DNA of 63,222 bases from positions 1-63,222 of the forward strand of contig ONYW01000005.1 in the NCBI GenBank assembly GCA_900322215.1. Direction: 5' to 3'. The notes beneath the pieces were generated by a model. The model ran no database searches. It worked only from the letters and a program-made list of their open reading frames with translations, and had not been told where the DNA came from. Positions 4,589-55,860 of this stretch are shown here, one piece after another. The DNA is from an uncultured Eubacteriales bacterium. GTDB taxonomy: Bacteria; Bacillota; Clostridia; Christensenellales; CAG-917. A program made the position numbers and the translations under genes. The stretch's first letter is position 1. The number at the start of each line of letters is the position of its first letter.

Positions 4589-4712
4589 AAGACCGTGATA
4601 TTTGGATGAGTTGCTAGGAAGGGCGCCTTTGGAGGGAGGGCGCGTACATAGACGTACGTAACCGACTGCCAAAGACGCGCTGACAACGCAAATCGCCAAA
4701 TAGCGCGGTCTT
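4589..4712 (-). ncRNA. Structured stop-codon element, copy A (after cysE)
   Basis: In cysE-sense orientation the element begins inside the TAA stop codon. Its ends form an outer stem with 15 of 17 positions paired. Inside are the blocks shared with copies B and C: TTGTCA, GTCGGTTACGTAC then GTACGCGC (a small hairpin), CGCCCTTCCT, GCA, and CTCATCC. The inner stem keeps pairing while its sequence differs from the other copies, which suggests selection on RNA structure. It has no U-run, so it is not a simple terminator. I cannot assign it to a named RNA family. Confidence 0.6.
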
Positions 4713-5388
4713 ACTCTAAAGCGTTGTCTTTGTCAATACTAAGCGAATACTGACAGCAATTTATTCCCTCTTTATCCTCTAACGCTGAAAGCCGCTTGTT
4801 TATTCTTGCAAGTTCTTCAAGGATCGGATCGGGGAGCGCCTGAGACATCTCGTCTTCGACCTTTTTGCCGTTTTGACGCACGACTCTGCCCGGCACGCCG
4901 ACTACCGTCGAGTGAGGCGGAATGTCTTTAAGAACGACACTGCCCGCGCCTATCTTTGAATGCTCGCCTATCGTGACGGGGCCCAAAATGCTTGCGCCTG
5001 CCGAGACCATAACGCCTTTTTCAAGCGTCGGGTGGCGTTTGCCGCTGTCCTTGCCCGTGCCGCCGAGAGTTACGCCTTGATATAGCACGCAGTCGTCGCC
5101 GACGACGGCTGTCTCGCCGATGACAAGCCCTACGCCGTGGTCGATGAATATGCGGTTGCCGATTTCCGCCGCCGGGTGGATGTCTATGCCGGTGCGCATC
5201 TTCACCCTATAAGAAACGTAAAACGCTAAGCGCTTGAACCCCTTTTGCCAGAGTTTGTGCGCATAGCGGTAGTGTACGAGCGCCTTGTAGCCCGTATATG
5301 TACGCTTGACGAGCCTGCGACTCGTCGCCGCAGGGTCACTTTGCATAATCTTGTCTAAATCAAGTTTTAGCGCTTCGCGTATTGTCAT
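4711..5388 (-). CDS. cysE: Serine O-acetyltransferase
   Basis: The enzyme makes O-acetylserine from serine and acetyl-CoA, the first step of cysteine synthesis. A helical N-terminal region is followed by a left-handed beta-helix of hexapeptide repeats (about residues 70-175). The signature D-I-H-P-A-A-E-I-G and the catalytic [10 protein letters not shown] region are present, as is G-G-T-G-K, typical of the short EpsC-type enzymes. The 225-residue length fits. The start lies 3 bp after the ftsH stop, so the two are probably co-transcribed. The stop codon overlaps structured element A by 2 bp. Confidence 0.95.
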
Positions 5389-14739: not shown

Positions 14740-17700
14740 TTAGACCTTCAACTGGTCTTTGTCGAGCTTCTTTTCGTTGCCGCCGAAGTTCAAGATGTCG
14801 TTGTTCAACTCTTCCGCTTCGTCGTCGAGATCGAGATCGAAGCGTTCGCCGCCTTTATCTGCGGCTTTTTCTTCCACTTCCACCTCGCCTTTGTTTTCGA
14901 CCTTTTGTTCCGCTTTGTTTTGGATTTGCGGTTCGTCTTCGAGATCGATGTCGATGTTTTCAACCTGTGGCTCGTCTTGTTTGACCTGTGGCTCGTCGAC
15001 TTTTTTGTTTGCTGCGGTGTTACCTTTGATCGGTGCCTCACCAAGTCTTGTGAGTCTTGCGTCTTCCGCCGCTATACGCTCCGCCATAGTCTGTTGCGGG
15101 ATATCGCTGGTCAGATCCTCGCTTTGCATATACTTGTTGGCAATAAATTGCTCTTTGGAGCGCTTTGCGTTTTCGACGTAGCGATCATACAGCTCGTTCT
15201 TCTCTTCCTTGCTCAGTTCGTTAAGGTCAAAGTCTGCGCCCGGATTCTTTTCGTTGAATTTCTTCGCGTAGTCTCTGAGGTAGTCGTTTTTGGACATGAG
15301 TTGATCCGCTTCGAACATCTTTGGCGGATTGTCGCCAAACTTTCTGCCGTCCAACTGCTCGTTGCGTCTGTTGAGGTAGTCCTCGGTGATTTTTCCGTGA
15401 CGGAACGCTTGAAGGAGTTCATCCTTGCGTTCTTTGACAGCATCGTCCAGTTCCTTCTTAGCGTCGTCAAGCTGTTGTTGCGCTCCTGCAGCGCCTTTGC
15501 GGACGGCCTTTTGCGCTCTCTCGATATTGGCTTGAAGAGTTTTGAGATCTTTGTTGAGGTCTTTGTCATCTTCGCGAACGCTGTCGCCAAAGTACTTCAC
15601 CGCGTCCGACTTCTTGTAATCTGCGAAGCTCTGTTGCACGTGGTATTTTTCCATCTCGTCAAGCTCAAGCTCGTCGACGTTAAGGCTGATCTGTCCCTTG
15701 CTCACCTGTTCGGTCAGCATATTTTTGACGAAACTCGGGGCGTCCGAGGCAAGACTATTGAGAGTCCTGTACACTTCACTCGATTTGTCGAGGTCAGGAC
15801 GTGCCGTAAGGAACTTGATCGCCGCTCTCTGCATTGCTCTCACGCAGCGAATAGGCTGCAATTCGCTGACAGACAAACGCTCTTTTTCTGGTTTTGGCAG
15901 ATCCTTGGCGATCATCTCCATAAATTTGCCGCCTTCTCTCATGACGCGATCCGCAAACTCTTTCGGGTCCTCGGGGTTGTTCATGAGGTACTCCATTTCG
16001 TCGAAGTACTTTGGCGGAATGATCGTCCTCGTATTAAAGTCCATCGTATGTGCGCCCAAGAGAGAAGCGTCCTGTTGCGGGTCTTTGACAAACAAAAACC
16101 GCTCGATGTGCTTTGTCGCAGTCCGCCATAACTCATTGCGAACTTCGGATAATTCGCTGACAACCTTTTGACCGGACAAAATATGCGAATATTCAGCCGC
16201 GAGATTCTTCTCCCTAAGCGCAGGATCTTTTTCCACTTCGCTGAGGTTCTCCGCCAATCTGCTTGTCTCATAGAGGTCTAAGTTGCCGTTCTGTACGGGA
16301 ACGAAAGCCTCGTACATCGCCTCGGCGCCCGACTTACCTTTTATTGTAAGGTTGATGTCGTCTTTTTTGACGTGTTTTTCGACTTGATAATTCAAAAACG
16401 CTCGAGGATCTTCAAGGAATTTGTCATAGTCGTAGTTTTGCTCTTTAAGTTCGCGATATACCAAATAGATACCGCTGAGCGCGGACGTGCCTTTCGTGTC
16501 GGCGCGGAACTCGGGCGGTAAAGCTCCCGTACGCTCCAAATCCATGTTGCCCGGGAAGAATCCGCCATCCTCTACGCCGTACAGTTTGCTCGCCATGCCA
16601 ATAAGTTCTTTGGCACGGTCGTATTCTTGGATCATCTTGTCGGCGAGTCCAACCGCTTGCAACTTGTCCACAGGATCGTCGCTGTGGATCTTCGCCCAAA
16701 ATTCGTCATGCGCTTTGCCATACTTGTGCAATGCGTAGACCTTGTTTTCGCCTTCTTCCACACTGAATGGCGCATCGTCCAAGCCGTATTCGTCAAATTT
16801 GGCAAAGATATCTTTGATCGCCTTCTTCGTCTCGGGATGATACTCGAATTTTTGCTCTTTGAATCTCTGATACTCTTCTTGCGCTTCAGGTTTGACGATT
16901 TCCCATCGTTCTTTCCCGCTTTCCGTCTTAAATTCTTCTTTTATTTCACCCGCCCAGGTCATTTCCATGTTGCCGCGAGGGGCGACGTCGAATCCTTGCG
17001 CCTTTAGCCCCTGTAAACCATAGGCCCGACGCGTGTTATTAATGCCGTACTTTTCTTGTTCTCTATCTAAGCGGAGAGATCCGACTTCTTTGATATATTC
17101 CTTATCTATGTCGGACATCATATCCTGAACGCGGTCGAGTTTTGCCATGACCTCCGCTTTGCGCTCGTTGGTCAACGGTTTTCCGTCCAAGAACGACATT
17201 TGACCGAACATGGTCTTGACGGAGTCAAACTCTTTTTCGTAGCGAGTAACCTTGGCTTCGTCGAGCGTCATTCTTTCCAACGCGGTCTGTTTTGCGTCCG
17301 CTTTGAGAGCGACGGATCTCACTTGGTCCTCAGGGATGGCTTTGATGAGCGGCTCCCATATCGCAGGGTTTCTTTCGATTTGAAGTCGACTGAGGCTCTT
17401 GGATTTCATCGCGGATTCTTTTGAGTCTGCGTCCATAACGTCGTATACTTTCTGCTTGTCGTTGTCCGAGAGCGTCTTCCACGCTTCGTCAACTAAAACG
17501 AACATACGCTCTTCGTCACGTTCTCTTTGTTCGAATTCTTCGCGATTTTTCAGCCAGTTGTCGCCTACGATAGGTGTGGTCAAAGCCGTTCTCAGTTCGT
17601 TTACTTTTGCAAGAAGAACGTCATTGGTGACTTGTTGACCGGGCTTAAACCACTTGCCGCTGAAATCGACAGGCTCCGGCTCTTTTTCCTCTTGTTTTTC

Positions 17701-20523
17701 GGCTTCGACCGCCTTTTCTTCCGCTTTGACTTCGGGCACCGTCGTCACAAAGCCGAGTACTTCGGCGTTTTGTTTGAGCACATACTGTGCCATATCCCTT
17801 TGACGCTCGGCTTTTTGTTCTTCCGTCATGTCGTCGGACTGCGGGAATAAATCGGGGAGTTCGTCATATTCATATTTAGGATCGTTAAGCTGTTTCTCGC
17901 GCGCTCTCTTGTAGCCCTCGGAAATACGCCCTGATTTCACGTCTTCGCCGAGTTGCTTGATGTAGGCTTGTTTGGCTTCGTCGAGTTTTTGATTTCTCGT
18001 TATATTGAGGACTTGTATTATTTCATCGGTGGCGACGTTTTGAATGCCGATCTCATCAACTCGAGCGGCAATACGCGAGTTTATCTCCGCAAGTTCTCCG
18101 TCTTTCAACTTCAACATCGACTTGTTGAACTCTTCGTCAGGCTCGAGGTCTCCTACTACCTGATACGTTGGGTGGAACCCGGCGACCTTCTGTTCAAACG
18201 TCTCAAACTTCTTCGCATACTTATCCGTCGTTTCGGTGACTATATCATCGTGTTCGTCGACGTATTTTTGCAAGCGGGCGATCTCCGCCGTGTTGCCGTC
18301 TTTTTGGGCTTGTGCAAGTTGCTTTTGAGCATCTACGAGTTTCTGCCTTTCCTCTTCCGGCATTACAAGGTCTAAGAGATAATCTTTTCCGTTGGTCAAA
18401 AGTCCTTTGAGCGCTTGGTAAGACGGATCGTCTTTTTCGGCGTGCTTTGCCATCAAAACCTTGCTCGCGGCTTCTTGAGCGAGCTCCAAGAGTCTGTTGC
18501 CGGCAAACGCCGGTTGCTCATATAGCCGCCCGTTAGAGCCGAGGACCTTTTGTGTTTTTGAGAGATGATAGAATTCTTTGATGCTGTTGTCCAAGAATTC
18601 TTTCATCTCGCCGACAGACTTGCCGTTCGTTTGCAAATATTCCAACTCGTTAAACGCTTCGGGTTCTTTGTAACTAAACGTCTTTGGGTCATAAACCTTT
18701 ACACCGAGCAAAGATGCGTCTTCACGCGGCTCGGTCACAAAAAGCAAGCGGTCAAGATGCCCCTTGGTGTAGGCGACAACACGGCGTCTACAGTCGCTCA
18801 GTTCTGCGTTTTGAATGACGTTTTCATACAAAAACTTGTTCAAGCCTGCGTTGTGAGCGCGAATCTCAGGGTCGGAGTCGTAGAACAAAAGCCCCTCGAA
18901 GGCGCGCGCCGCACCGTACGAATTGGCGGTCACCAAAACTCTTTCATCCCGTCTGCTTGCCTCAAACAGCGCCGCACCGCCCGCTTTTCCTTTCATTCCT
19001 TTGTCGATTCCCAAAGCGTTTTCCCCATAGTAGGAATCGCGCAATGCCTGTGACGGATGATCCAAAAACTCCTCCATGGTCATTCCGTTCGCTTGGGCGT
19101 AGTTCATTGCAATAAATACCGAGTTGAACACCGTGACGGCTTCGTCATAGCGATATTCAGGAGGAAAAGTGCCGTTTCTTACGACGTCAATGTTGCCCGG
19201 TTTTGCAAAATTGTCGGAGGTGCGATCAACAGGGAAATTTTCTCGGACGAAATCGAGCATCTCATTGACGTGTTCCTTTTCTTGGAGCATAGCCTTGGAC
19301 GCTTCGGCGATTTTGGTCGCGTCGCCCGATTCGACTGCTTTTTTATAATCCTTAATGGTTTTTGCAAGCATGGAAAGTCCATATTCTTTTTCGCCCTGTT
19401 CTTTGATGACGCCTTTGCCACCGTAACCGAACTCTTGCATCTTGGAGACCAACGTCAGAATGGACTCTTTGGTCTTTGGCGAAATCTTGTATTCTTGCTC
19501 GTTCCACTTGTCGAATTCTTCTCTCTTATCCTCGTTCAGAATAGGATCGACCGACATTGTGGCCATGTTGAATTCTTGGTTCATTACGTTATAATCGAAC
19601 CCTTGTTCTTTCATCATGGCTTCGCCGGCTTTTTCACCGTCTGTCAGCGCGGCGTGTTCGTATGCCGTGGACAGCGCGAAATACGTGCTCTGAGGATCTT
19701 CTCCTGCAAGAGGCCGACGCAAAAAGTCGTTGGCGGCGTCAATGTCCGCCTTCATCTCATCTTTCTGCTCTTGTGAGAGATCTTTCCTTGCGTCTATATC
19801 CGCTTTTGCCTTGTCGCTCTCGGCGGTATATGCCTTTTCACCCATCTCTTCCGGCGTTCTTTCCCACGGCACGATATAATTGTCTGCCGTGGCTTTAAGC
19901 TCGTTCATCTGCTCGGGCGTGAGCATCTCCGCCAGTTTGCCTTGTACGTACTCGCGGTTGTCAGTGATGAACTTGGGCGTTATGTTGTTGGCAGGGTCCG
20001 CAACCTCGGCAATCTGTTCAGGCGTGAGCAAATCCTTGACCGCCTCTTTCGCCTCCTCGATGCTGATGTGCTCATTCAAAATGTTACCGGCAACGTCGAG
20101 CGCCTTCACTTCGGCTATATATTTCGCTTGATCCGGACCCTCGACTTTTGACAAATCTACTTTCTTTTGATAGTCCGAATCCGGGCCTTTTAATATTCTT
20201 GTGAACTTTCCTCTGACGCTACGAGGTATGTATTCTTTGTCGGGAGCGTCTTGATAGATTTGCATCTTTTGCTCGTGCGTCAACATCCCGACAATCTTGT
20301 TTATGACGGCATCGGCGCACAATCTGGCTGCCGTTCTCGTCTCGGTTACACGTTGCGTATAATGCAGTTCTGTCTCGTCTTTTTCTCGCGGAGCGCCTTT
20401 TGCGTACGATGCATTACAAAAATTCAAAAAAGCCGTGCCGAAAGTCTCTTTGTTCAGCGTCTCGTTTTCTTTTCCGAACGGAATGCGCCACTCATATTTT
20501 GACGGTTGTCTGTCTTTAGGCAT
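14740..20523 (-). CDS. Giant cytoplasmic coiled-coil protein 1 (1927 aa), unknown
   Basis: A very large, highly charged protein with no signal peptide and no TM segment. It is a paralogue of the next gene (21018-27059). A module of about 166 residues occurs twice: near 442-607 and near 1324-1490. Both copies keep P-G-N-(I/M)-D-x-x-R-x-G-x-x-P-P-E-x-R, then K-G-K-(A/S)-G, and end H-(L/I)-(D/E)-R-x-L-F-V-x-x-P and D-A-S-L-L-G. After each module come predicted coiled coils and a basic G-(R/K)-I-(S/T)-E-x-Y block. The C-terminus is a Gln/Glu/Pro linker with two acidic patches (I-D-I-D-L-E-D-E and F-D-L-D-L-D-D-E). Codon use matches the core genome. No known domain was recognised, and the function is unknown. 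Confidence 0.85.
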   Translation of the reverse strand: MPKDRQPSKYEWRIPFGKENETLNKETFGTAFLNFCNASYAKGAPREKDETELHYTQRVTETRTAARLCADAVINKIVGMLTHEQKMQIYQDAPDKEYIPRSVRGKFTRILKGPDSDYQKKVDLSKVEGPDQAKYIAEVKALDVAGNILNEHISIEEAKEAVKDLLTPEQIAEVADPANNITPKFITDNREYVQGKLAEMLTPEQMNELKATADNYIVPWERTPEEMGEKAYTAESDKAKADIDARKDLSQEQKDEMKADIDAANDFLRRPLAGEDPQSTYFALSTAYEHAALTDGEKAGEAMMKEQGFDYNVMNQEFNMATMSVDPILNEDKREEFDKWNEQEYKISPKTKESILTLVSKMQEFGYGGKGVIKEQGEKEYGLSMLAKTIKDYKKAVESGDATKIAEASKAMLQEKEHVNEMLDFVRENFPVDRTSDNFAKPGNIDVVRNGTFPPEYRYDEAVTVFNSVFIAMNYAQANGMTMEEFLDHPSQALRDSYYGENALGIDKGMKGKAGGAALFEASRRDERVLVTANSYGAARAFEGLLFYDSDPEIRAHNAGLNKFLYENVIQNAELSDCRRRVVAYTKGHLDRLLFVTEPREDASLLGVKVYDPKTFSYKEPEAFNELEYLQTNGKSVGEMKEFLDNSIKEFYHLSKTQKVLGSNGRLYEQPAFAGNRLLELAQEAASKVLMAKHAEKDDPSYQALKGLLTNGKDYLLDLVMPEEERQKLVDAQKQLAQAQKDGNTAEIARLQKYVDEHDDIVTETTDKYAKKFETFEQKVAGFHPTYQVVGDLEPDEEFNKSMLKLKDGELAEINSRIAARVDEIGIQNVATDEIIQVLNITRNQKLDEAKQAYIKQLGEDVKSGRISEGYKRAREKQLNDPKYEYDELPDLFPQSDDMTEEQKAERQRDMAQYVLKQNAEVLGFVTTVPEVKAEEKAVEAEKQEEKEPEPVDFSGKWFKPGQQVTNDVLLAKVNELRTALTTPIVGDNWLKNREEFEQRERDEERMFVLVDEAWKTLSDNDKQKVYDVMDADSKESAMKSKSLSRLQIERNPAIWEPLIKAIPEDQVRSVALKADAKQTALERMTLDEAKVTRYEKEFDSVKTMFGQMSFLDGKPLTNERKAEVMAKLDRVQDMMSDIDKEYIKEVGSLRLDREQEKYGINNTRRAYGLQGLKAQGFDVAPRGNMEMTWAGEIKEEFKTESGKERWEIVKPEAQEEYQRFKEQKFEYHPETKKAIKDIFAKFDEYGLDDAPFSVEEGENKVYALHKYGKAHDEFWAKIHSDDPVDKLQAVGLADKMIQEYDRAKELIGMASKLYGVEDGGFFPGNMDLERTGALPPEFRADTKGTSALSGIYLVYRELKEQNYDYDKFLEDPRAFLNYQVEKHVKKDDINLTIKGKSGAEAMYEAFVPVQNGNLDLYETSRLAENLSEVEKDPALREKNLAAEYSHILSGQKVVSELSEVRNELWRTATKHIERFLFVKDPQQDASLLGAHTMDFNTRTIIPPKYFDEMEYLMNNPEDPKEFADRVMREGGKFMEMIAKDLPKPEKERLSVSELQPIRCVRAMQRAAIKFLTARPDLDKSSEVYRTLNSLASDAPSFVKNMLTEQVSKGQISLNVDELELDEMEKYHVQQSFADYKKSDAVKYFGDSVREDDKDLNKDLKTLQANIERAQKAVRKGAAGAQQQLDDAKKELDDAVKERKDELLQAFRHGKITEDYLNRRNEQLDGRKFGDNPPKMFEADQLMSKNDYLRDYAKKFNEKNPGADFDLNELSKEEKNELYDRYVENAKRSKEQFIANKYMQSEDLTSDIPQQTMAERIAAEDARLTRLGEAPIKGNTAANKKVDEPQVKQDEPQVENIDIDLEDEPQIQNKAEQKVENKGEVEVEEKAADKGGERFDLDLDDEAEELNNDILNFGGNEKKLDKDQLKV

Positions 20524-21017: not shown

Positions 21018-24000
21018 CTATTTCTTGAGGGGATCGAGTTCCACCTTCTTTTGGTTGCCGATGGCGAGGATGTCATAGTTTCGCTCTTCGGCGTCGTCGT
21101 CGAGGTTGAGATCGATGCGTTCTCCGCCGTTGTCTACAACTTTTTCTTCCCCTTTCACTTCGACTTTTTCTTCTTTTTCTGCAACGTCTTGCTGTTGCTG
21201 AGGCTCGTCGTCGAGATCGATATGGATGTTTTGAACGTTCGGCTGTTCTTGTTGCACGCCTTCCTGCTTTGCTTGCGGTTCGGCTTTTTGCGCCTCTTGC
21301 GCCTTCTCTTGCATAGCGAGTTGCGCGTTCTTCTCCTCGATGCGCTCCGCCATAGTCTTTTGCTCGAACTTTTGTCTGAGTCCTAAGAATTCAAGATATT
21401 TCTTGGCGACAAATTGGTCTTTTGCAAGCTTTGCGTTGTCGACGTAGTGCTTGTATATCTCGTCTTTTTCGGTCTTGCTGAACGACGCAAAGTCACCTGG
21501 ATATTTTTTGCGCAAGTAGTCGTTTTTGGACATCAATTCATCCGCCTCGAACATCTTTGGCAGGTTGTCGCGGAACTTTCCGCCGTCCAGTTGCTCGTTG
21601 CGCTTGTTCAGATACTGCTCGGTGATACGGCCGTCGCGGAAGTCCTTCATCAACTGCTCTTTGCGGTCTGCGATCGCCTGTTCCAATTTCTCTTCAAGTT
21701 CGAGTTTCTTTTGCGACGCCTTATCGATCGCAAAGGCGCTTGTGGCGCGTTCGAGTTCGTGGTTGGCGCGTTCGAGTTCCGCTTGCAGGTTGCTAAACTC
21801 ACGATTTGCGTTTTTGTCCGCCGTGCGAACGTCCTCGCCGAAGTTTCTCATCTCTCTCGATTTTGCATATTGAGAGAGCGTCATACTCGGGTAGACAGAA
21901 TCCATCGATTCAAAATCCAACCTATCCAAATCGAGACCTTCGAGTTCGTCCGCAAACTCGCCATCCTTCATTGCTTGGAGACGTTCTCCTATCACCGAAG
22001 GACCTTTTTCGATGAAGTCATTCATCGTTTTGTAAGCGTCGCTTCTCTTGTCGAGTTCGGGGTGCGCCACGAGATATTTGAGAGACGCCTTTTGGATCAT
22101 TTGAACGACCGTGTCGTTGGTGATACCCAAAGCCGGTTGGTTCTTTTGCATCCACGCCAGCGTTTTCCCGCCTTCCTTCAAAATACGGTTGAGGTATTCG
22201 TCAGGCGTTTCTTGCAAATTCCAAAGGTAGTCTATTTCGTCGAAATCCACTCTCGGGCGGGCTTTCATCGTATCGAAATCGTAGGTTGGGAAACCGAGGA
22301 GCGAAGCGTCTTGTTGCGGTTCTTTGACGATCAAATAATTGTCCAAGAAACCATTGCCCAAGCGCGGGAGTTCATCTCTGTACCCGATCACTTGCAATTG
22401 GAATTGTCCGCTGACCGAATAGGCATATTCGGAAGCCATATTGTTGCGCGCCATCTCGGGGTCGGTTTCGAGCTTCGACATCGTCTCCACCGCTCTGCCT
22501 ATACGATAAAACTCTTTTGTTCCACGGTTTTGATACGGAGTGATAATATCCGTGATGGCGGCGGCACCGGTTTTTCCTTTTATGGTGTTGTTGACGTCCG
22601 TCTCATCGACGACCTTTCGAGTCTCCTTGTTCATATACGCTCTCGGATCGTCAAGGAACTCGTCCAAATTAACATTTTGTTGTTTGAGCGTGCGGTACAT
22701 AACGTACAAGCCGTTGAGCATGGATACGCCGGATATGTCCTTGCGCCATTCAGGCGGGAACGCGCCGTTTCTTTCAACGTCCATATTGCCCGAATAGAAT
22801 CCGCCCTTGTCCAAATTGAATGCGTCTTTTGCGATGCCGATGATCTCTTGCACGTGGTTATACTCGGTGATCATCTTCTCCGCCGCCTCGACCGATTTGA
22901 TTTTTTCCACAGGATCGTTGCTGAAACACGTCGCTTCAAACTCGCCTCTTGCTGTGGCGTAGCGGTGCAATCCGTATATCTTGCCGTCTTCTTCAGGGTT
23001 GAACTCGCCTTGATCGAAGCCGTATTCGTCGAATTTGGCGAAAATGTTCTTGACGGCGTCCTTAGTCTCTTGGCGCATTTGGATCTTGCGGTTTTGCAGT
23101 TTTTGATACTGCTCCTCATATCCTTCCTGCACCTGGTCCATCTCGACGTCGCCTTCTGAACTCATATAACCGGTCTTTTGACCTTTGACGCCGTCAAAGA
23201 CGACCGTGGTCTCGTTGTTGCCCTCGATGTGGACTTCGATACCTTCCGATTTGAGTATCTCCTCGGCTGTGTGCGAACGTACGTCGTTCATGCCGTGTTT
23301 GTACTCTTCACGGCTCATACGCATGTTCCCGAGCGCGCTGTCATAATCTTTGTCAAGTGCCGACATCAAGTCTTGCGCTTTGTCAAGTTTGCCTTCGATC
23401 TCGGCTCTCTTGGCTTCGGTCAACTCTTCGCCCTTGTAATACTTCATTCCTTGCAGAATGCCTTTGACTTCCCCAAACTCTTTGCCGTATAGAGGCACTT
23501 TTACTTCATCGATCGAGCGTTCGATTTGCGCTTTGTGCGCTTCGGTTCTATACGCCAAATCTTTGAAGTCCTCTTCGGGAAGGTTGTCGACAATTGCTTT
23601 CCAAACTTTGGGATTGCCGAGAGCAGACGTATTGTAATTCTCGATATTGTTGTGCGGGGTAAGCTGCGGATCTTTTTTCTCTTCCGCAGAGAGGAAGGGC
23701 TCCGACGCTTTTTTCACGTCGGCCAAAGACATATTCTTGAACGTTTTTGACAGTTCTTTCGCTTGGGCGGACTTGTTGCTTATAAGTTCGGCATAGCGAT
23801 TTTTCGCTTCTCTTTCCGCCATTTCACGAATTCCGTTCTCCAGAGTTTCGAATACGGCTTGCTTGCCTTCGGGAGATAATTTCTGCATGGATTCTTCATA
23901 GAAGAATCTGAGCCGATCCACCTCGCTGGTCGCCGCTTCGATGGACTGTCTCATTTCAAGCCAGTTGTTGCCTTTAACTTCCGGCTCCTTGCGCTGTTTT

Positions 24001-27000
24001 TCAATGAGTTCCAACTTTGCGACGAACGCTTCCTTGGAAGGTTGTGTGCCCGGCTCGAACCATCTTCCCGTAAAGTCTGTGACTTTTTCCTCCTCGACAA
24101 CAGGCTTCTCCTCTTTGACTTCGGGGGCTTGTTTTATCTCCTCTTCTTGTGCGACGCCGGTGTTGCTGAATCCGAACGCTTCGGCTTCGTTTTTGGCGAC
24201 GTACTCTGCAACGTCCCTTTCTCTCAACGCGTTCTGAGCCTGTACGTATACGTCGTACAACGCGTCGCGGTCCGCTTGATCGTAACCGTCGAGTTTTTCT
24301 CCCGCCGCTATGAGGCTATTGATATATTCCTCTTTGGACATAGTTTGCGGCACTTGGAAGAAAGGCGGCAAAGTGTCGAACTTATAGTCGGGATCGTTGA
24401 TTTGTTTGAGGCGCGCGTCTTTGAAAGATTCGACTATGCGCCCCTCCTTTACGTCTTTGTCAAGTTGCGCGGTATAGGCTTCTTTGAGCTTATGAATTTC
24501 GTCGCGTTTTTGGTTTATCAAACCGGAGAGTATTTGCGCTTCGTCGTCTTGATCGACTTTTAGCTGCCCGACTTCCTCTCTTCTTGCGTTGAGCCTTTGG
24601 TAGAGTTTTGCCTGTTCGTCCAAAAGTTGCTTCATTGACTTGTTGTAGTCTTCGTCAGGCTTCAAATTGCCGCCTTTGGCGAGCGTTTGCGGGTCGATTT
24701 GGGCGATCTTATTCTCAAACGCTTCGAGGTTTTGCGCATATTGGGTTTGCGGTTGCGTGACCTTGACCGTGATGTCCTTGAACGCTTTGTTGGCGTCGAT
24801 ATATGCCTTTAGACGCTCGATTTCTTTTTGATTTCCGTCTTTTTCGGCCTGCTCCAGCGCGGTTTCCGCTTGGATGACCTTGTTCTTTTCCTCTTGCAAG
24901 AGGGCGTTAACATAGCCTTCTCCGTCCGTCAAAACGCTCTTGAGCGCGTCGTACGAACCGTTGCCCTTCTCGTTGTATTTTGCAATAAGAATCTTGCTTG
25001 CGGCTTGTTGAACGAGTGCCACAAACGAGTTGTCCTTGTATGCCGACTGCTCGCACACTTGCCCTTTCAAGTCCAAAAACGTTTGCGTTTTCTTGAGCAA
25101 CAAATATTTTTTGATGCTTTCGTCAAGAAATTCTTTCATCTCGGCGACAGATTTGCCGTTGTTGTGCAAATAGGCCGCCTCATTGAAAACTTCCGGTTGG
25201 TCGTAAGACAAGGTTTTGGAATTGTAGAGCGGCAAGCCTAAAATGGTAGCGGGGGCCATCTCCTCGTGTACGAAGAGATAGCGGTCCATGTGTCCTTGTC
25301 GGTACGCAATGCTACGCCTGTTGATATCCATCGACGCATTCTCGAAAACGTATTTTTCGAGCTGGTTGCCAAACCCGTGATTGTGTGCGCGTATCGCGGG
25401 ATCCATATCCAAAAAGTACATCGCCTCATACGCACGCCCCGCTCCCGATGACGAAAGCACTCGAACGGCGGTGTCGGTTCTGCTCGCTTCAAAGAACGCA
25501 TCTCCGCCCGTCTTGCCGACAAGGTTAGGTTGCAATCCAGTGCGACCCTTGCCTTCATAGACATATTTGCGTATGCCCTCGGAGGGGTGTTCCAAAAACT
25601 CCTCGGGAGACATACCGTTTGCCTCGGCAAAGTTCATCATAATGAAAATTGAGTTGAATGCCGAAACGGCGTCGTTGTAGCGATAGTCCGGCGGGAACGT
25701 TGCGTTGCGCACAACGTCGATGTTGCCCGCTTTTGCAAAGTTGTCGCTATGGCGATCGATAGGGAAATTTTGCTTGACGTAATCGAGCATTTCGTCGAGG
25801 TGCTCTTTTTCCGTCACCATCGCCTTGGACGCTTTTGCGATCTCGACGGGATCGCCCGCCGCGATGGCTTTTTTGTAGGCGCGTATGGCGCCGGCAAGCG
25901 GGGACAGACCGTACTGTTTCGTACCCTCTTCTCCGATGACGCCTTTTCCGCCGTATCCGTACTTTTGCATCATGCCGAACACGTGCTTAATGGATTCTTT
26001 GGTCTTGGGCGAAAACTTGAATTCCTGCTTTTCCCACTCTTGGAACTCTTTTTCCTTGCCCTCTTTTAACGTTATATCTGAGGTAACGGTCTTCTCATTG
26101 ACGACAGTATCGAATATATCGGGGTCCAGTCCCTCTTTTTCGATTTGTTTTTGTGCGGCAGCGTTGCCGTCGCGCAATGCGGCTTTTTCGTAGTCCGTTG
26201 ACAATTGCATATAGGCGGACTCGGGATCTTCTCCTATTGGCTGACGCAAAAAGTCGTTGGCGGCGTCTATATCCTCCTTCATCTCGGCCTTTTGTTCGGG
26301 AGAAAGATTTTCCATCGCGTCGATTGCCGCCTTTGCGGTTTCGCTCTCGGCGGTATAGACCTTTTCGCCCAACTCTTCGTGGGTTCTATCCCATGGGAGT
26401 TTGTAGTTTTCCACCGATTTTTGCAATTCTTGCATCTGTTCGGGCTCCAACATTTCGGCAACGTTTTCCGCAACGTACCCCACCAAATCACGTATAAACA
26501 CTCCGTTTACATACGTTTCGGGTTTGAAGACGGGACCGTTCATCTGCTCTTCCGTAAAGAAGGGCTTGACGATCTGTTTCATCTGTTCTATGGTACATTT
26601 TTTGTCGCTTACTTGATTGATGACATTCTCAACTTTTTGGATCTCCGCTTCCAACCGCGCTTTTTCGGGACCGCCCTCGAGGTTTTGAGCCCTGCGATAA
26701 TTCTCCTTGTACTTTTCGTCTCTAAGCATCGACGCCAAGGTGTGGGCGGTCAAATTCCTGACGAAATCCTGTCCTTTTTGTGGAGCATTTTGCACCAATT
26801 TACGCCTTTGTGCGGGCGTCAATAATTTGCATAATTTATCAAGGCAGGCGTCGGCGCACAAAGCGTTGCTCTTGTTCACTTCATCCACGTTTTGTGCGTA
26901 GTGAAGATACGTTTCGTCAGGCTCCTTTTCCCTTGCCGGAGCGTATGATTGCTCAACAAAACGAATAAAAATCGCCGCAAAAGTCTCTTTGCCCAGCGTC

Positions 27001-27059
27001 TCTCCTTCGCGGACGAACGGGACACGTCCCTCTTTCAAGTTCACTTGATCATTAGGCAT
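21018..27059 (-). CDS. Giant cytoplasmic coiled-coil protein 2 (2013 aa), unknown
   Basis: Paralogue of the 1927-aa protein along its full length. The N-terminal blocks align (V-P-F...E-T-L-G-K-E-T-F), as do both copies of the internal module (about 440-620 and 1420-1590), the K-R-N-E-Q-L-D-G block and the acidic tail (I-H-I-D-L-D-D-E; I-D-L-N-L-D-D-D). In this copy the first module has lost the D-A-S-L-L-G ending (it reads A-P-A-T-I-L-G), while the second keeps it. The midpoint has F-T-G-R-W-F-E-P-G, matching F-S-G-K-W-F-K-P-G of the paralogue, which marks the junction of the two halves. No signal peptide, TM helix or catalytic motif is recognised. The gene has its own leader. Confidence 0.85.
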   Translation of the reverse strand: MPNDQVNLKEGRVPFVREGETLGKETFAAIFIRFVEQSYAPAREKEPDETYLHYAQNVDEVNKSNALCADACLDKLCKLLTPAQRRKLVQNAPQKGQDFVRNLTAHTLASMLRDEKYKENYRRAQNLEGGPEKARLEAEIQKVENVINQVSDKKCTIEQMKQIVKPFFTEEQMNGPVFKPETYVNGVFIRDLVGYVAENVAEMLEPEQMQELQKSVENYKLPWDRTHEELGEKVYTAESETAKAAIDAMENLSPEQKAEMKEDIDAANDFLRQPIGEDPESAYMQLSTDYEKAALRDGNAAAQKQIEKEGLDPDIFDTVVNEKTVTSDITLKEGKEKEFQEWEKQEFKFSPKTKESIKHVFGMMQKYGYGGKGVIGEEGTKQYGLSPLAGAIRAYKKAIAAGDPVEIAKASKAMVTEKEHLDEMLDYVKQNFPIDRHSDNFAKAGNIDVVRNATFPPDYRYNDAVSAFNSIFIMMNFAEANGMSPEEFLEHPSEGIRKYVYEGKGRTGLQPNLVGKTGGDAFFEASRTDTAVRVLSSSGAGRAYEAMYFLDMDPAIRAHNHGFGNQLEKYVFENASMDINRRSIAYRQGHMDRYLFVHEEMAPATILGLPLYNSKTLSYDQPEVFNEAAYLHNNGKSVAEMKEFLDESIKKYLLLKKTQTFLDLKGQVCEQSAYKDNSFVALVQQAASKILIAKYNEKGNGSYDALKSVLTDGEGYVNALLQEEKNKVIQAETALEQAEKDGNQKEIERLKAYIDANKAFKDITVKVTQPQTQYAQNLEAFENKIAQIDPQTLAKGGNLKPDEDYNKSMKQLLDEQAKLYQRLNARREEVGQLKVDQDDEAQILSGLINQKRDEIHKLKEAYTAQLDKDVKEGRIVESFKDARLKQINDPDYKFDTLPPFFQVPQTMSKEEYINSLIAAGEKLDGYDQADRDALYDVYVQAQNALRERDVAEYVAKNEAEAFGFSNTGVAQEEEIKQAPEVKEEKPVVEEEKVTDFTGRWFEPGTQPSKEAFVAKLELIEKQRKEPEVKGNNWLEMRQSIEAATSEVDRLRFFYEESMQKLSPEGKQAVFETLENGIREMAEREAKNRYAELISNKSAQAKELSKTFKNMSLADVKKASEPFLSAEEKKDPQLTPHNNIENYNTSALGNPKVWKAIVDNLPEEDFKDLAYRTEAHKAQIERSIDEVKVPLYGKEFGEVKGILQGMKYYKGEELTEAKRAEIEGKLDKAQDLMSALDKDYDSALGNMRMSREEYKHGMNDVRSHTAEEILKSEGIEVHIEGNNETTVVFDGVKGQKTGYMSSEGDVEMDQVQEGYEEQYQKLQNRKIQMRQETKDAVKNIFAKFDEYGFDQGEFNPEEDGKIYGLHRYATARGEFEATCFSNDPVEKIKSVEAAEKMITEYNHVQEIIGIAKDAFNLDKGGFYSGNMDVERNGAFPPEWRKDISGVSMLNGLYVMYRTLKQQNVNLDEFLDDPRAYMNKETRKVVDETDVNNTIKGKTGAAAITDIITPYQNRGTKEFYRIGRAVETMSKLETDPEMARNNMASEYAYSVSGQFQLQVIGYRDELPRLGNGFLDNYLIVKEPQQDASLLGFPTYDFDTMKARPRVDFDEIDYLWNLQETPDEYLNRILKEGGKTLAWMQKNQPALGITNDTVVQMIQKASLKYLVAHPELDKRSDAYKTMNDFIEKGPSVIGERLQAMKDGEFADELEGLDLDRLDFESMDSVYPSMTLSQYAKSREMRNFGEDVRTADKNANREFSNLQAELERANHELERATSAFAIDKASQKKLELEEKLEQAIADRKEQLMKDFRDGRITEQYLNKRNEQLDGGKFRDNLPKMFEADELMSKNDYLRKKYPGDFASFSKTEKDEIYKHYVDNAKLAKDQFVAKKYLEFLGLRQKFEQKTMAERIEEKNAQLAMQEKAQEAQKAEPQAKQEGVQQEQPNVQNIHIDLDDEPQQQQDVAEKEEKVEVKGEEKVVDNGGERIDLNLDDDAEERNYDILAIGNQKKVELDPLKK

Positions 27060-27209
27060 AAATATATACTCCTAAATTTATTTTCTACAACCATAATAGC
27101 AAATGAAATATAACTAATTTATGACAAATTGCTGTATTTTACACACTTTTATTCTATGACAAAACCATTCTAAAGGGGCAAAGCCCCTCACCAAGCACAA
27201 GAATGTTGC

Positions 27210-27313
27210 GGACACTTCGTGTCTTTAATTATTGAGAATTACTCAAATAAGTTTTTCATCAATAAACATCTATCAAACGGGACGAAGTCCCCACCAAGCA
27301 CAAGATTGTTGCA
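27210..27313 (+). repeat. 104-bp direct repeat, copy 1
   Basis: Nearly identical, with only a few mismatches, to 27503-27606. It contains a TTC-loop hairpin at its left end and a GGGAC-GAA-GTCCC hairpin near its right end. Confidence 0.85.
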
Positions 27314-48898: not shown

Positions 48899-49999
48899 AT
48901 GAAATTAATTTGCCAAGGATCAGAACTCAGTGACGCATTATCAAAAGTTGTGAAAGCGCTTCCCGTCAAGCGTACGAATCCTATTCTTGATGGTATTCGC
49001 CTTACGGCGAGCGGTGATACGCTCACCCTTTTTGCAACGGATCTTGAACTTGCGATAGAAAAGAAAATCAACGCTCAAGTTTTGCTTGAAGGAGAGATAG
49101 TCGTTCCGGGCAAACTTTTTGCTGACTATGCAAAGAAGATAGAAGAAGAGGAGATAGAACTTGACGGTACGGACGAGACAAAACTCACTATCCGCTACCT
49201 CGATAGCGCGGTGAACATTCGTTGTCTCAACAAGGATGAATATCCTCTCTTCAAAGAAGTCTCAACCGAGCATTCGTTTGTAATCCTCAAAAAGGATTTC
49301 AAGGAAGTTATTTCAAAGGTTATATTCAACGTGGCGGCGGATGACGCAAGACCTTCCCTTCGCGGTGTATGCCTCAACATACGCCCTGACGAACTCGAAG
49401 CAGTCGCGTCGGACGGCTATCGCTTGGCACTTGCAAAAGCCACGATTCAAAACAACGGCATTGTAGAAAAAATAGTTGTTCCCGCAAAGTCTATGAACGA
49501 ACTCAACCGCCTCGTGGACGACGGAGAGGAGACTGTTGCAGTCTATATTGAAAAGAACTATATCATGGTGGATCTCTTCCACACAAAGATAGTTACCCGC
49601 CTTATCAGCGAGGATTATATCAACTACGAAAAGATCATTCCAGGCGTCTTCACAACCGAAGTTACGGTTGACAAAAACATCTTTGAAAAATCTATCGACC
49701 GCGTCGCGCTTATGAACAGACTTGAAAAGAAGTCATACGTCAAGATGGAAATCAAAGAGGACAGCATGACTCTCGGAGCGCACTCCGAAGAAGGCGACGT
49801 CAACGAGAAAGTGACTATCGGTCTCAAAGGAAAAGACCTCACTATCGGTTTCAACTCAAAATATATCATCGACGCAATGCACGCAATAGACGAACCGTTT
49901 GTGACTCTCAACTTCACAACCTCCACTGCCCCTGGAATTATTAAGGGGTCAACGGAGAATTGGTTGTATTTGATTTTGCCGCTTAGAGTTATAGGATAA
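48899..49999 (+). CDS. dnaN: DNA polymerase III subunit beta (sliding clamp)
   Basis: 366 residues, the normal length. Three successive clamp domains are recognisable: M-K-L-I-C...L-P-V-K-R-T-N-P-I-L-D-G-I in domain 1, D-D-A-R-P-S-L-R-G-V-C-L and S-D-G-Y-R-L-A in domain 2, and the closing L-I-L-P-L-R-V at the C-terminus. It forms the ring that tethers polymerase to DNA. Own promoter and ribosome site AGAAGGG. It is followed by a terminator, so it is not co-transcribed with dnaA, which is inverted. Confidence 0.97.
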   Translation: MKLICQGSELSDALSKVVKALPVKRTNPILDGIRLTASGDTLTLFATDLELAIEKKINAQVLLEGEIVVPGKLFADYAKKIEEEEIELDGTDETKLTIRYLDSAVNIRCLNKDEYPLFKEVSTEHSFVILKKDFKEVISKVIFNVAADDARPSLRGVCLNIRPDELEAVASDGYRLALAKATIQNNGIVEKIVVPAKSMNELNRLVDDGEETVAVYIEKNYIMVDLFHTKIVTRLISEDYINYEKIIPGVFTTEVTVDKNIFEKSIDRVALMNRLEKKSYVKMEIKEDSMTLGAHSEEGDVNEKVTIGLKGKDLTIGFNSKYIIDAMHAIDEPFVTLNFTTSTAPGIIKGSTENWLYLILPLRVIG

Positions 50000-50043
50000 A
50001 ACAGTGCTATTTGGCGATTGACTGTGTCAGACTTATAAAAATA

Positions 50044-50706: not shown

Positions 50707-50721
50707 CGTTCTCTCTTGAAA

Positions 50722-50745
50722 AACTGTGATATTTGGATGAAGAGC
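50722..50745 (-). ncRNA. Remnant of the stop-codon element (3' arm only)
   Basis: Plus-strand CTGTGATATTTGGATGA nearly repeats the outer arm of copy A (CCGTGATATTTGGATGA). The rest of the element is missing, so this is a relic next to the complete copy B. Confidence 0.45.
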
Positions 50746-50784
50746 CAGGTCAAACAAACAAAATATAACAAAATATAATAAATT

Positions 50785-50908
50785 AAAAATGCGTGAGCAA
50801 GATGAGATGCGAGGAAGGGCGGTTTTTTTTGGAGCGCGCGTACTGATGGTACGTAACCGACAAAAAAAGTGACCTGACAAAGCAGGTCGCTTGCTCACGC
50901 ATTTTTTA
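50785..50908 (-). ncRNA. Structured stop-codon element, copy B (after dnaA)
   Basis: In dnaA-sense orientation the element starts within the TAA stop. The outer stem is a perfect 17 bp (50785-50801 with 50890-50906). Inside are TTGTCA, GTCGGTTACGTAC, GTACGCGC, CTCC, CGCCCTTCCT and GCATCTCATC, as in copy A. Outer-stem sequence is unrelated to A or C, yet fully paired. Confidence 0.65.
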
Positions 50909-52273
50909 ACGTTGGAGGAGCATATTGCGTAGGTCATACACAATAATTTTTATTCTCGGATTGTTTTTGATGTCCTCGCTTATCTTGTCTCTTGCGTGAA
51001 TGATCGTCGTATGGTCGCGCCCGCCGAACATCTCGCCTATTTGCACGAGCGGGATAGAAAGCAGTTCCGTGATGAGGTAGATAGCGATCATTCTCGGTTC
51101 TACGACGTTTTTCGTCTTCTTCTTTGAGAAGATATCCGCCGTTGAAATTTTGAAATATTTGCAAACGGTGTCAATTATATCGCTTGCGTCTATCGTGTCC
51201 TTTCTGTCGTCGATGAAGTCCGCGAGCGCGTCGTGCGCAAGTTCGCGGGTGTTGATGACGGTGTTTGAAAGAGAACTGAAAAAGATAATTTTGTTGAGAA
51301 GCCCTTCCATTTCCCTTATGTTTGAAGTGGAATTCTCCGCGATAAACTCCGCGACGTCGTCGGACAAATCGAATTTTGACTGTGCCGCCTTGTTTTTGAG
51401 AATGGCGACGCGAGTCTCCATATCCGGCGTTTGAATGTCGACGGTGAGTCCCCAACTGAAACGCGTAGAGAGCCTGTCGGCGAGTTTTTCCATCTCCTTT
51501 GGCGCGCGGTCGGAAGTGAGAATGATTTGCTTTCCCGACTGGTACAAGTCATTGAAGATGTTGAAGAAGGCGTTTTGAGTGGCGTCTTTGCCGTTTATCG
51601 CCTGAATATCGTCTATCATGAGTACGTCGCAGGAGCGATACTTTTCTCTGAACTTATTGTTTTCCTCGTTTGAACCGCTGCGTATGACTTGAATGATCTC
51701 CGTGACAAGGTCGTCCGCCGTGACGTAAAGCACGTTCGCGTTCTTGTTCTTTTTGAAGATATGATTTCCTATCGCGTGGAGCAAGTGCGTTTTGCCAAGT
51801 CCGACGCCCGAATAGATAAAGAGAGGATTGAATTTTGTGCCGGGTTCTTCCGCAACCGTCTTGCTTGCGGCAAGCGCGTATGCGTTGGATTTGCCCTCCA
51901 CAAAGGTGTCAAAAGTGTATTTTGGAAGAAACGGATTCTTCTTCTTGCTTTGTACGACGGGTGTTGAGACGACAAAGCCCGCATTTTCGACAAAATCCGA
52001 CTGATTTTTGAGATAATCGTCTTTTTTGTCCGCCGTCGTGATGACAACGTCTTTGACGGAGGAGTTTATGGCGGAAGCGACTTCCTTTATCGTATCGAGA
52101 TACTTTGAGTCGATGGTCTTTTTTGCGGTTGCCGAAATCGTCGACAGCACGAGCGCGCCCCCGACAAAGCAAACGGGTTCGAGTTTTTCGATCCACACTT
52201 CATAGCTTATCGCCTGAATGGAGATGGACAACTCTTCCTTGCAATTTTCCCAAAATTCCTCGATATTTATCAT
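50906..52273 (-). CDS. dnaA: Chromosomal replication initiator protein
   Basis: 455 residues from ATG 52273. Domain I is near 1-80, followed by a linker, then AAA+ domain III with Walker A G-V-G-L-G-K-T-H and Walker B V-L-M-I-D-D-I-Q. Domain IV carries the DnaA-box signature G-G-R-D-H-T-T-I-I-H-A. It binds oriC and opens the duplex. The gene is inverted relative to dnaN and recF, unlike the usual dnaA-dnaN-recF order of Bacillota. There is no ribosome site; a TATAAT sits 7 nt before the ATG. The stop codon overlaps structured element B. Confidence 0.97.
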   Translation of the reverse strand: MINIEEFWENCKEELSISIQAISYEVWIEKLEPVCFVGGALVLSTISATAKKTIDSKYLDTIKEVASAINSSVKDVVITTADKKDDYLKNQSDFVENAGFVVSTPVVQSKKKNPFLPKYTFDTFVEGKSNAYALAASKTVAEEPGTKFNPLFIYSGVGLGKTHLLHAIGNHIFKKNKNANVLYVTADDLVTEIIQVIRSGSNEENNKFREKYRSCDVLMIDDIQAINGKDATQNAFFNIFNDLYQSGKQIILTSDRAPKEMEKLADRLSTRFSWGLTVDIQTPDMETRVAILKNKAAQSKFDLSDDVAEFIAENSTSNIREMEGLLNKIIFFSSLSNTVINTRELAHDALADFIDDRKDTIDASDIIDTVCKYFKISTADIFSKKKTKNVVEPRMIAIYLITELLSIPLVQIGEMFGGRDHTTIIHARDKISEDIKNNPRIKIIVYDLRNMLLQR

Positions 52274-52280
52274 ACCGACA

Positions 52281-52308
52281 ATTATAGCAAACCGAAAAAA
52301 TTTTTCAA
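52281..52308 (-). promoter_or_regulatory. Promoter of dnaA, leaderless type
   Basis: Minus strand TTGAAA (52303-52308), 16 bp, TATAAT (52281-52286), then 7 nt to ATG 52273. Confidence 0.65.
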
Positions 52309-52343
52309 GCAAAAAATAAAAAAATAAAACTAAATACAAGATG

Positions 52344-54066: not shown

Positions 54067-54186
54067 AAACCGCTCGGTTCGGATGAAGAGCGCGAAAAAG
54101 CCCGCTTGCGAGAGATGAGCGTACCGACGTACGTGACCCTCGAACAAACGGGCTTTGACAATGCTATTCGCCAAACTGTGCGGTTT
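54067..54186 (-). ncRNA. Structured stop-codon element, copy C (after parB)
   Basis: Starts within the parB TAA. The outer stem pairs 14 of 16 positions. The inner stem AAAGCCCG/CGGGCTTT is fully different from A and B yet paired. Shared blocks: GGCGAATAGC, TTGTCA, CACGTACGTC then GTACGC, GCTCTTCATCC. Confidence 0.6.
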
Positions 54187-55084
54187 ATAATTTATCGTTG
54201 TATTTCAGGATTTGAATCAGCGCATGAATACGCTCAAGATCGTCCGCATTGAAATAGTCTATAGTGATTCTTCCCTTTTGGTCGTTGCCGACGAGTTTGA
54301 CCTTTGTTGCAAAGATACGCTTCATATCGCCGACAAACTCTTTGAGTTCAAGCGACATAACTTTGTTCTCTCTCGGACCTGTCGGAATAGTCTTTCTCGT
54401 GAAGTAGAGGCGAACTCTGTTTTCGAGATCTCTGACGGAGAGTTTGTTGTCGCAGGCTTGCTTTGCAAGGGCGATGAGGTATTCTTTGTCGTCGATGGAG
54501 ATGAGCGTTCTTGCGTGGCCCGGGGCGAGTTTGCCTTCTCTCACGAGTTCGGTCACTTCGTCGGGGAGTTGCAAAAGTCTAAGAGTGTTTGTGACGTACG
54601 GGCGGGATTTGCCGATTCTTATCGCCACTTCCTCTTGAGTGAGACCGTGGTTTTCCATAAGTTCGCGCATACCTTCCGCCGCCTCGACAGCGTTCAAGTC
54701 TTCGCGGTGCAAGTTCTCTATAAGCGAGATTTCTTGGATTTGTTGCGGAGAGAATTCTCTTACGATCGCGGGGACTTTTTTGAGTCCCGCCATGTGGCAT
54801 GCGCGGAAACGGCGTTCGCCTGCGATGATGAGATATCTTCCGCCCTCGCTACGCACAAGAATGAGAGGTTGAAGGACGCCGTACGTCGTGATAGACGCCG
54901 CCATTTCTCTCAAACTGTCCTCGTTGAACGTCTTTCTCGGTTGGTTCGGGTTCCTGTCAATGAGAGTGATGTCGATTTCCTGCGTTTGGATGTCGTCGGA
55001 AAGATCCACTTTGACGTTTTCAGGATTATCGTTGAAGAGTGCGTTCAAGCCTTTCATGCCAAGGCCGCCTTTTGCGTTTGCCAT
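54185..55084 (-). CDS. parB: Chromosome partitioning protein ParB/Spo0J
   Basis: 299 residues from ATG 55084 (AAGGAG upstream). Box I/II of ParB: I-A-G-E-R-R-F-R-A and S-L-I-E-N-L-H-R-E-D-L-N, the CTPase and clamp-closing region. A helix-turn-helix follows (L-T-Q-E-E-V-A-I-R-I-G-K-S-R-P-Y-V in parts) for parS binding, then a dimerisation C-terminus. It lies 11 bp after parA, forming the parAB operon. Five candidate parS sites lie 4-6 kb away at 59003-61294. Confidence 0.97.
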   Translation of the reverse strand: MANAKGGLGMKGLNALFNDNPENVKVDLSDDIQTQEIDITLIDRNPNQPRKTFNEDSLREMAASITTYGVLQPLILVRSEGGRYLIIAGERRFRACHMAGLKKVPAIVREFSPQQIQEISLIENLHREDLNAVEAAEGMRELMENHGLTQEEVAIRIGKSRPYVTNTLRLLQLPDEVTELVREGKLAPGHARTLISIDDKEYLIALAKQACDNKLSVRDLENRVRLYFTRKTIPTGPRENKVMSLELKEFVGDMKRIFATKVKLVGNDQKGRITIDYFNADDLERIHALIQILKYNDKL

Positions 55085-55095
55085 AACAAAACTCC

Positions 55096-55860
55096 TTAGA
55101 TTTTTTGTATAAATTCTTTTGCGAGCGCCTCGTATGCGAGTGCTCCCGCGCATTTTTTGTCGTATAGTACCACCGGCTTGCCAAAACTCGGCGACTCCGC
55201 CAGGCGTACGTTCTTCGGGATCGTGGTCTCAAACACCTTGTCGCCAAAGAGTTTTTCGATCTCCGCCCTCACTTCCCTCGTGAGTTTGCTCCTGCCGTCG
55301 TACATGGTGAGCGCAACGCCCGCGATATTGACGGACGGATTCAAAAACTTCCGTACGAGTTTCACGGTGTTCATCATCTGCGCCAGTCCTTCGAGCGCGA
55401 AGTATTCACACACGATAGGCACGACGATGCCGTTTGACGCGGTGAGTGCGTTGACGGTGAGCAGCCCGAGCGACGGACCGCAGTCTATAAAGATATAGTC
55501 AAAATTGTCCTTTACCGCCTCGAGTTTCTCTTCGAGCACGCGCTCGCGCCCGATGACGATTTGCCCGAGTTCGAGTTCCGCCCCCGCAAGGTCGTTGGAC
55601 GCGGGTAGGATTTTCAATCCCTTTATCTCGGTATCCACGATGCAAGACTTTATGTCAGCGCCGCCGCAAATAACGTCGTATATAGAGTTTTTGGTGCGTT
55701 TGTCAAATATGCCGAGCGATGAAGAGGCGTTTCCCTGCGCGTCGAAGTCCACAACAAGGACTCTTTTGCCCGCTTCCGCTATATATGCCGCAAGATTGAC
55801 GCAGGTCGTCGTCTTGCCAACCCCGCCTTTCTGATTTGAAAATGCAATAATTTTTGCCAT
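55096..55860 (-). CDS. parA: Chromosome partitioning ATPase ParA/Soj
   Basis: 254 residues from ATG 55860. Deviant Walker A K-G-G-V-G-K-T-T (residues 10-17), V-D-F-D-A-Q-G-N, and I-D-C-G-P-S-L-G-L-L. It moves or regulates the origin region together with ParB and, in B. subtilis, also controls DnaA. No ribosome site; the promoter TAGACT box is 7 nt before the ATG. Confidence 0.97.
   Translation of the reverse strand: MAKIIAFSNQKGGVGKTTTCVNLAAYIAEAGKRVLVVDFDAQGNASSSLGIFDKRTKNSIYDVICGGADIKSCIVDTEIKGLKILPASNDLAGAELELGQIVIGRERVLEEKLEAVKDNFDYIFIDCGPSLGLLTVNALTASNGIVVPIVCEYFALEGLAQMMNTVKLVRKFLNPSVNIAGVALTMYDGRSKLTREVRAEIEKLFGDKVFETTIPKNVRLAESPSFGKPVVLYDKKCAGALAYEALAKEFIQKI

Follow-up and report, generated by a model that had tools for sequence, protein, structure and literature searches.

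The window analysed here, a stretch of 63,222 nucleotides from an uncultured Eubacteriales bacterium, carries full copies of a dispersed palindromic element that begins in the stop codons of genes and runs in the direction of the gene. The element is real and not a product of chance, and it is to be classed as ERIC-like, not as a proven regulatory RNA. In our preferred reading, to which we give a probability of about 0.55, it is an ERIC-like miniature element located at gene ends, the arms of which are renewed mainly by template switching on DNA, with some copies co-opted as terminators. Its unusual parts are the strict anchoring at stop codons and the arms, which are matched within a copy and sometimes track the host sequence.

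Three full copies lie in the window, all on the minus strand and at the places where they had been predicted. Copy A was matched by the covariance model at 4590..4711 with 129.5 bits, at the stop codon of a gene with a hexapeptide repeat (4711..5388, minus strand). Copy B (50786..50905, 116 bits) is located at the stop codon of dnaA (50906..52339, minus strand) and copy C (54067..54186, 111.9 bits) at that of parB (54185..55153, minus strand). Each copy starts in the TAA of its gene and on the gene's strand, as had been claimed. The name cysE given to the first gene is plausible, the only domain found being the hexapeptide repeat. Two partial copies had been missed. A truncated copy, consisting of the left half only, starts in the stop codon of dnaN (48899..49999, plus strand) and covers 49997..50030 on the plus strand, and a stray right half was found downstream of copy B at 50720..50750 on the minus strand; both blast matches are weak when taken alone (E 0.007 and 0.19, respectively). 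The dnaN half copy is absent from the 132 covariance-model matches described below, and behind it comes an ordinary terminator-like hairpin.

Other features of the window were recorded as well. Five parS-like sites of the GTTTCACGTGAAAC type occur between 59004 and 61293 (expected 0.02); two of them match exactly and the other three have a single mismatch. All lie no more than about 7 kb from parB, as they would close to a chromosome origin. On the minus strand, two giant adjoining open frames of 1927 and 2013 amino acids (14740-20523 and 21018-27059) have several DNA blocks that are 71-77% identical, apparently the result of a tandem duplication. Small repeats with several copies of ACACTTCGTGT-type hairpins occupy 27168-27623, and similar sequence was found at 7732, 12427 and 53815.

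The three copies belong to a dispersed repeat family. From 52 printed copies, 48 could be trimmed and aligned as two subtypes, subtype I (alignment A1, 30 copies) and subtype II (alignment A2, 18 copies), and the covariance model for the family search was made from A1. Applied to 1,589,682 bases of the source genome (94.3% complete, 65 contigs), this model gave at least 132 matches at E ≤ 0.1, a lower bound with 150 of the 676 first-look candidates scored. The density of these matches is about one per 12 kb, and flanking DNA was retrieved for all 132. When copy A served as the query, 50 places in the same genome were found at E ≤ 10. The check proposed along with the original prediction, a covariance model and a whole-genome search, thus revealed a dispersed family, and the element shares these features with MITEs: it is short, has terminal inverted repeats and is present in many dispersed copies. 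A comparison with Rfam, which had been proposed as well, gave no family that matches the copies. At gathering scores the window yielded one tRNA and nothing else, and at E ≤ 1 ten element loci yielded ten matches, none of them overlapping a copy. An Rfam RNA family as the identity of the element was rejected on these grounds. Three copies are unusually long, exceeding the model by 44 to 71 bases with inserts inside (L202 at the dnaA end of genome G006, L258:1346-1511 and G000:C44:27652-27840).

The position of the copies relative to genes was determined with a simple codon-usage gene caller, and a copy was counted as anchored when a co-directional stop codon fell between positions -25 and +6 relative to the model start. 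Anchoring was observed for 92 of the 132 copies, compared with a fraction of 0.037 among 4000 random intergenic windows drawn from the same stretches, the copies themselves included. A further 15 copies follow another same-strand copy at a distance of no more than 45 bases, and 25 are neither anchored nor behind another copy. The stop codon of an opposing gene was found at the 3' end of three of the 132 copies (chance 0.026). The stop codon at the boundary is TAA in 69 cases and TGA in four, and a further 18 genes extend 5-25 bases into the copy before they end.

As a control that does not depend on the gene caller, we counted the copies at whose 5' boundary an open frame of 100 codons or more ends, and did the same for the mirrored 3' boundary. 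This resulted in 77 versus 10 of 113 copies in the source genome (19 copies with short flanks dropped), 26 versus 4 of 28 in genome G002 (one of 29 dropped) and 19 versus 2 of 26 in genome G036. At a threshold of 60 codons the numbers were 88/24, 27/7 and 21/6, respectively. G036 belongs to another genus of the same family and was represented by 20 stretches picked for high-scoring matches (57% G+C). Its copies mostly start with TGA and end with TCA; many copies of the source genome abut TA(A). The gene caller found 5 of the 26 G036 copies anchored and none opposing, and a regular expression found only 5 copies there. Since the gene caller is taken to fail at this base composition, the frame test was used for G036. 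Stop-codon overlap and consistent orientation, both predicted from the copies in the window, are therefore far above chance (92/132 versus 3.7%, with opposing stops at 3/132 versus 2.6%), and G002 and G036 agree. Neither random positions nor random orientations were seen in the genome-wide counts, and the orientation counts of three genomes bear out a dispersed element at gene 3' ends that is co-directional and starts at the stop codon. That the element is an ordinary neutral palindromic repeat, which inserts at random and is tolerated at 3' ends only, is very improbable with opposing stops at chance level and co-directional stops at 70%, although the ERIC copies of Enterobacterales are found at stop codons in both orientations.

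Read on its own strand, the element forms a single long and imperfect palindrome of DNA, about 122 bp in length, in which a strand-specific core is conserved while the stems vary freely. An outer stem of about 16 pairs encloses the neck GCGAnnnGC / GC..NCATC. A middle stem is also present, and TTGTCA on the left and CCTTCC on the right are conserved single strands. The two subtypes are distinguished by the apex, which reads GTYACGTAC-loop-GTACGCKCC in subtype I and CAACCRTGTAC-loop-GTACAYTGGGTTG in most copies of subtype II. Folding of copies A, B and C gave z values of -6.1, -7.3 and -6.5, and each copy beat 200 of 200 dinucleotide shuffles. The antisense strand of copy A folds more strongly than the sense strand (-62 versus -48.5 kcal/mol).

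It had been noticed that the stems differ between copies yet stay paired, and this was found in both subtypes. Paired cells make up 94.7% in A1 (76.5% in shuffles) and 95.4% in A2 (79.6% in shuffles). Changes are mostly two-sided, with 189 two-sided versus 5 one-sided cells in A1 and 101 versus 14 in A2. To take such compensatory change as proof of an RNA fold under selection was not supported by the analysis. In the outer stems of 128 copies, 1452 cells are Watson-Crick, 37 G-T, 62 A-C and 113 other, so that G-T does not exceed A-C (A-C over G-T, p 0.015), and one-sided changes are few. Selection on an RNA should favour G-U over A-C on the transcribed strand. This excess was absent from the outer stems and from A1 (12 G-T versus 21 A-C mispairs over all stems) and was seen only in A2, where it is slight and in the opposite direction to A1 (15 versus 9 in 18 copies). 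Selection on an antisense transcript is possible and would fit both the antisense fold of copy A and the outer-stem bias towards A-C. What stands of the proposed "mobile or regulatory RNA element" is a dispersed, co-directional element at 3' ends.

The arms vary in concert within a copy. Among 16 orthologous pairs shared with G002 (15 distinct copies of the source genome, one tandem pair compared out of register), the two arms of a copy matched at 252/352 in the source genome and at 241/352 in G002, versus 203/352 and 203/352 between orthologous arms, the within-copy values being somewhat inflated because the covariance model used to find and align the copies prefers paired arms. Sixteen of the 29 G002 copies in the fetched stretches lie at gene ends that also hold a copy in the source genome. 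The dnaA stop codon carries a copy in the source genome, G002 and G006, each with different stems; the genus yielded 16 further dnaA loci, all of them free of a copy. At the parB end of G002 a full copy is absent, and a remnant may be present.

Some arms follow the host gene. The right arm of the copy at C18:20889 is an inverted copy of the coding end of its gene, and the right arm of the G002 orthologue follows the G002 gene. Arms continue into the flanks with a score of at least 6 in 10 of 131 copies (1.5 expected) and with a score of at least 7 in seven of 131 (0.8 expected). Nine of the ten copies are stop-anchored, and two of the ten come from one tandem pair. Over all copies, extension of the palindrome into the flanks is not general, with a clear excess only at the two positions that adjoin the model. 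The base that immediately precedes the stop codon is mirrored at a rate of 0.44 versus 0.25 in the source genome (z 3.9) and 0.90 versus 0.66 in G036 (z 4.2). G002 showed no clear mirroring of this base (0.32 versus 0.25, z 0.7), and its mirrored coding bases were not above chance (37/114 versus 32.7).

The scarcity of one-sided changes, the co-variation of arms within copies and the right arms that follow gene ends are what copying of DNA between the arms would leave, and the paired changes look mostly DNA-made. Template switching is reported to create and to repair hairpin stems (PMC8794818), and we infer from these traces, rather than from an observed event, that it acts on the arms of the element. 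In the proposed mechanism, the element would be a non-autonomous, ERIC-like miniature repeat that overlaps the stop codon in the gene's own orientation. Once its hairpin is extruded, the replication machinery may switch template between the arms (quasipalindrome correction) and thereby renew their complementarity. The left arm, which includes the stop codon and in some cases the final codons as well, would be held by coding selection, so that the right arm would be rewritten to match it and each copy would acquire its own matched arms. Some copies, read in sense, carry a short terminator in the left half as well.

The observations on the arms also bear on a cis-acting RNA of the 3' UTR, involved in stability, processing or ribosome release, with stems kept by selection through ordinary compensatory mutation. 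We regard such an RNA as doubtful. It would account for the sense orientation and the start at the stop codon, for the strong folds with conserved, strand-specific loop letters and for the slight G-T excess in subtype II, and ERIC is reported to affect transcript levels in Yersinia (PMC2229807); the lack of a G-U excess in A1 and in the outer stems (128 copies), the few one-sided changes, the unrelated stems of orthologous copies and the arms that track host coding sequence in some copies argue against it. The G-T excess of subtype II, together with the bias of the model for paired arms, makes the reading as an element with template-switched arms somewhat less likely and the RNA somewhat more so.

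Template switching alone leaves the orientation bias unexplained. A mobile element whose insertion is itself aimed at stop codons in one orientation, with the right arm copied from the target on insertion, is possible but on balance unlikely. The cues could be, for example, the termination of transcription or of translation, or DNA that is single-stranded where genes end. Anchoring is one-way in three genomes, and the stop codon of dnaA is occupied by a different copy in each of three species, as directed insertion would produce; 16 of the 29 G002 copies, however, lie at ends also occupied in the source genome, and old shared insertions fit equally. The G002 orthologue of the copy at C47:9478 consists of a copy followed by a right-half remnant that resembles the copy of the source genome. 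Stray right halves on the same strand were found behind nine of 92 anchored copies (opposite strand 0) versus three of 111 copy-free ends, and stray left halves, for comparison, behind 2/92 versus 4/111. A target duplication was looked for at G002 gene ends without a full copy. The sequences agree up to the stop codon, and the right junction could not be aligned. The lack of an enzyme among the three families sought counts against directed insertion and also against the preferred reading. These families, Y1_Tnp, RVT_1 and DDE_3, were absent from the source genome (94.3% complete, 65 contigs) and from G001, G002 and G006. They occur in 13, 13 and 2 of 61 genomes, respectively, and Y1_Tnp is also present in the copy-rich G033 and G036.

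Among these 61 genomes of relatives (source genome included), 31 have matches at E ≤ 1e-6, with 1 to 57 each and at most 58 candidates scored. Across the class, matches were found in nine of 291 genomes, again including the source genome, and seven of the other eight have a single match. The distribution is patchy, and the element appears to have been mobile in the past.

Termination had been suggested as one role of the element, and this is plausible for some copies. In the 150 bases downstream, terminator-like hairpins follow 16 of the 89 anchored copies. Among gene ends that have neither a copy nor, over the next 150 bases, a gene on the same strand, 32 of 62 have such a hairpin (Fisher p 1.7e-5); the two groups are unmatched for stop distance or next gene. 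A short internal terminator occurs in 17 of 131 copies in sense and in three in antisense, compared with 2 of 132 shuffled sequences. One type, with GACCTG..CAGGTC and a T-run in the left half, accounts for ten of the 17, which are therefore not independent of one another. Copy B is among them, with the hairpin and T-run, a consensus match of putative function, in its left half (50871..50888, minus strand). The T-rich outer foot is not sense-specific (21 sense versus 36 antisense of 131). Because ordinary terminators are rarer behind copies and short terminators occur in left halves, the element probably acts as its gene's 3' end, and termination would then be its function. If the left-half terminators work, the sense transcript of these ten copies would end before the right half, so that the two halves would not pair in RNA and the full hairpin would not be transcribed, a further point against a 3' UTR RNA.

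The relation to ERIC was analysed with a pattern built from the subtype I letters of the source genome, written with ERIC already in view, and scanned over GTDB species genomes. It matched 95 stretches. Of the 80 that are named, 74 are from Enterobacterales, five from Clostridia or Clostridiales MAGs (four MAGs) and one from a Deltaproteobacteria MAG. Among the remaining 15, 13 have all three of the ERIC letter groups sought outside the pattern, L128 has two, and L137, which is cut by its locus end, has one. In the Deltaproteobacteria MAG (L117:1332-1385), a similar element with its own arms stands directly behind a TAG stop codon in the same direction. A core score from four blocks derived from our element gave 29.5 for an E. 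coli ERIC, the one behind cusC, which had been retrieved independently with ERIC primer letters. In enterobacterial sequence amounting to 1.42 Mb with both strands counted, the highest score of a site not recognised as ERIC by eye was 18.8. Among the best background sites is a further motif, CTCACGTACnnnGTGTACGCTCCGG with flanking arms, in Enterobacterales (L081:3346, L087, L054 and L103; scores 16.1-17.9), possibly another relative of the core hairpin.

The central core hairpin and the CCTTCC block of ERIC are present in the element. Beyond the core, similarity to the 127-bp ERIC consensus was not detected: the alignment z was 2.0, nhmmer gave no hits and the flanks were no better than shuffled sequence. 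The covariance model gave a top match to ERIC with E 0.0084 and with shifted arms. Conserved terminal inverted repeats with TA ends, as in ERIC, were not found, the arms varying among copies. Homology with ERIC over the whole length was rejected, the core alone being common. The two thus have a core in common, probably by descent, but are different elements.

Searching titles and abstracts, with most subscription papers outside the scope, we found no ERIC-like elements in Clostridia and no such stop-codon-anchored palindromes. According to a review of 2024, ERIC occurs in Enterobacteriaceae and Vibrionaceae (PMC10969869), and the mode of ERIC movement is described as still open (PMC2229807, PMC2759123). 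A related family with strict stop-codon anchoring and varying but matched arms is thus a natural experiment on the range and the movement of ERIC. It might be suggested, tentatively and against the odds, that the palindrome is targeted one-way to stop codons with its second arm copied from the end of the host gene, and that ERIC is a frozen branch of a wider superfamily. If the second arm is so copied, each gene would have a hairpin made to measure, with the gene's own stop codon inside it. The element also carries a warning, as covariation is normally read as the mark of a structured RNA but can come from template switching on DNA. A covariance model alone would have labelled it a regulatory RNA.

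Compared with known systems, the element shares features with several and is identical to none of those considered here. Like intrinsic (Rho-independent) terminators it forms a hairpin after the stop codon, and some copies have a short hairpin and T-run in sense, but it is a 122-bp structure with conserved core letters and a T-rich foot without sense specificity. Integron attC sites also follow stop codons; an attC-like site was set aside, the copies being dispersed behind core genes. With REP/RAYT systems the element shares dispersed extragenic palindromes. REPs are reported to span 20-40 bp (PMC3733652), whereas the element is much longer, and a Y1 transposase match is absent from the source genome, G001, G002 and G006. 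As in template-switch or quasipalindrome correction (PMC8794818, PMC7202029), where such traces are described, there are two-sided multi-base changes, homogenised arms and reverse-complement copies of neighbouring sequence. However, that is a mutation process and not an element, and in the present case it would work across an entire dispersed family and take gene 3' ends as its template.

The closest likeness is to ERIC (IRU, RU-1; 127 bp). Both have about this length, a single long imperfect hairpin and frequent contact with stop codons, and both have the core GTYAC-K-TAC..GTA-M-GCKCC followed by CCTTCC and GC.NCTC at similar spacing. A TA duplication is reported for ERIC (PMC2759123); for our element none has been demonstrated. 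In 89 ERIC copies, which were selected by pattern and include orthologous loci, 15 co-directional stops (within -1 to 5) and 20 opposing stops (within -2 to 7) were counted, and the frame test gave 10 versus 16 of 70 (19 dropped), hence no orientation bias. In contrast, our element is mostly co-directional with its genes, and its arms vary freely and remain matched, whereas those of the ERIC sample are largely fixed.
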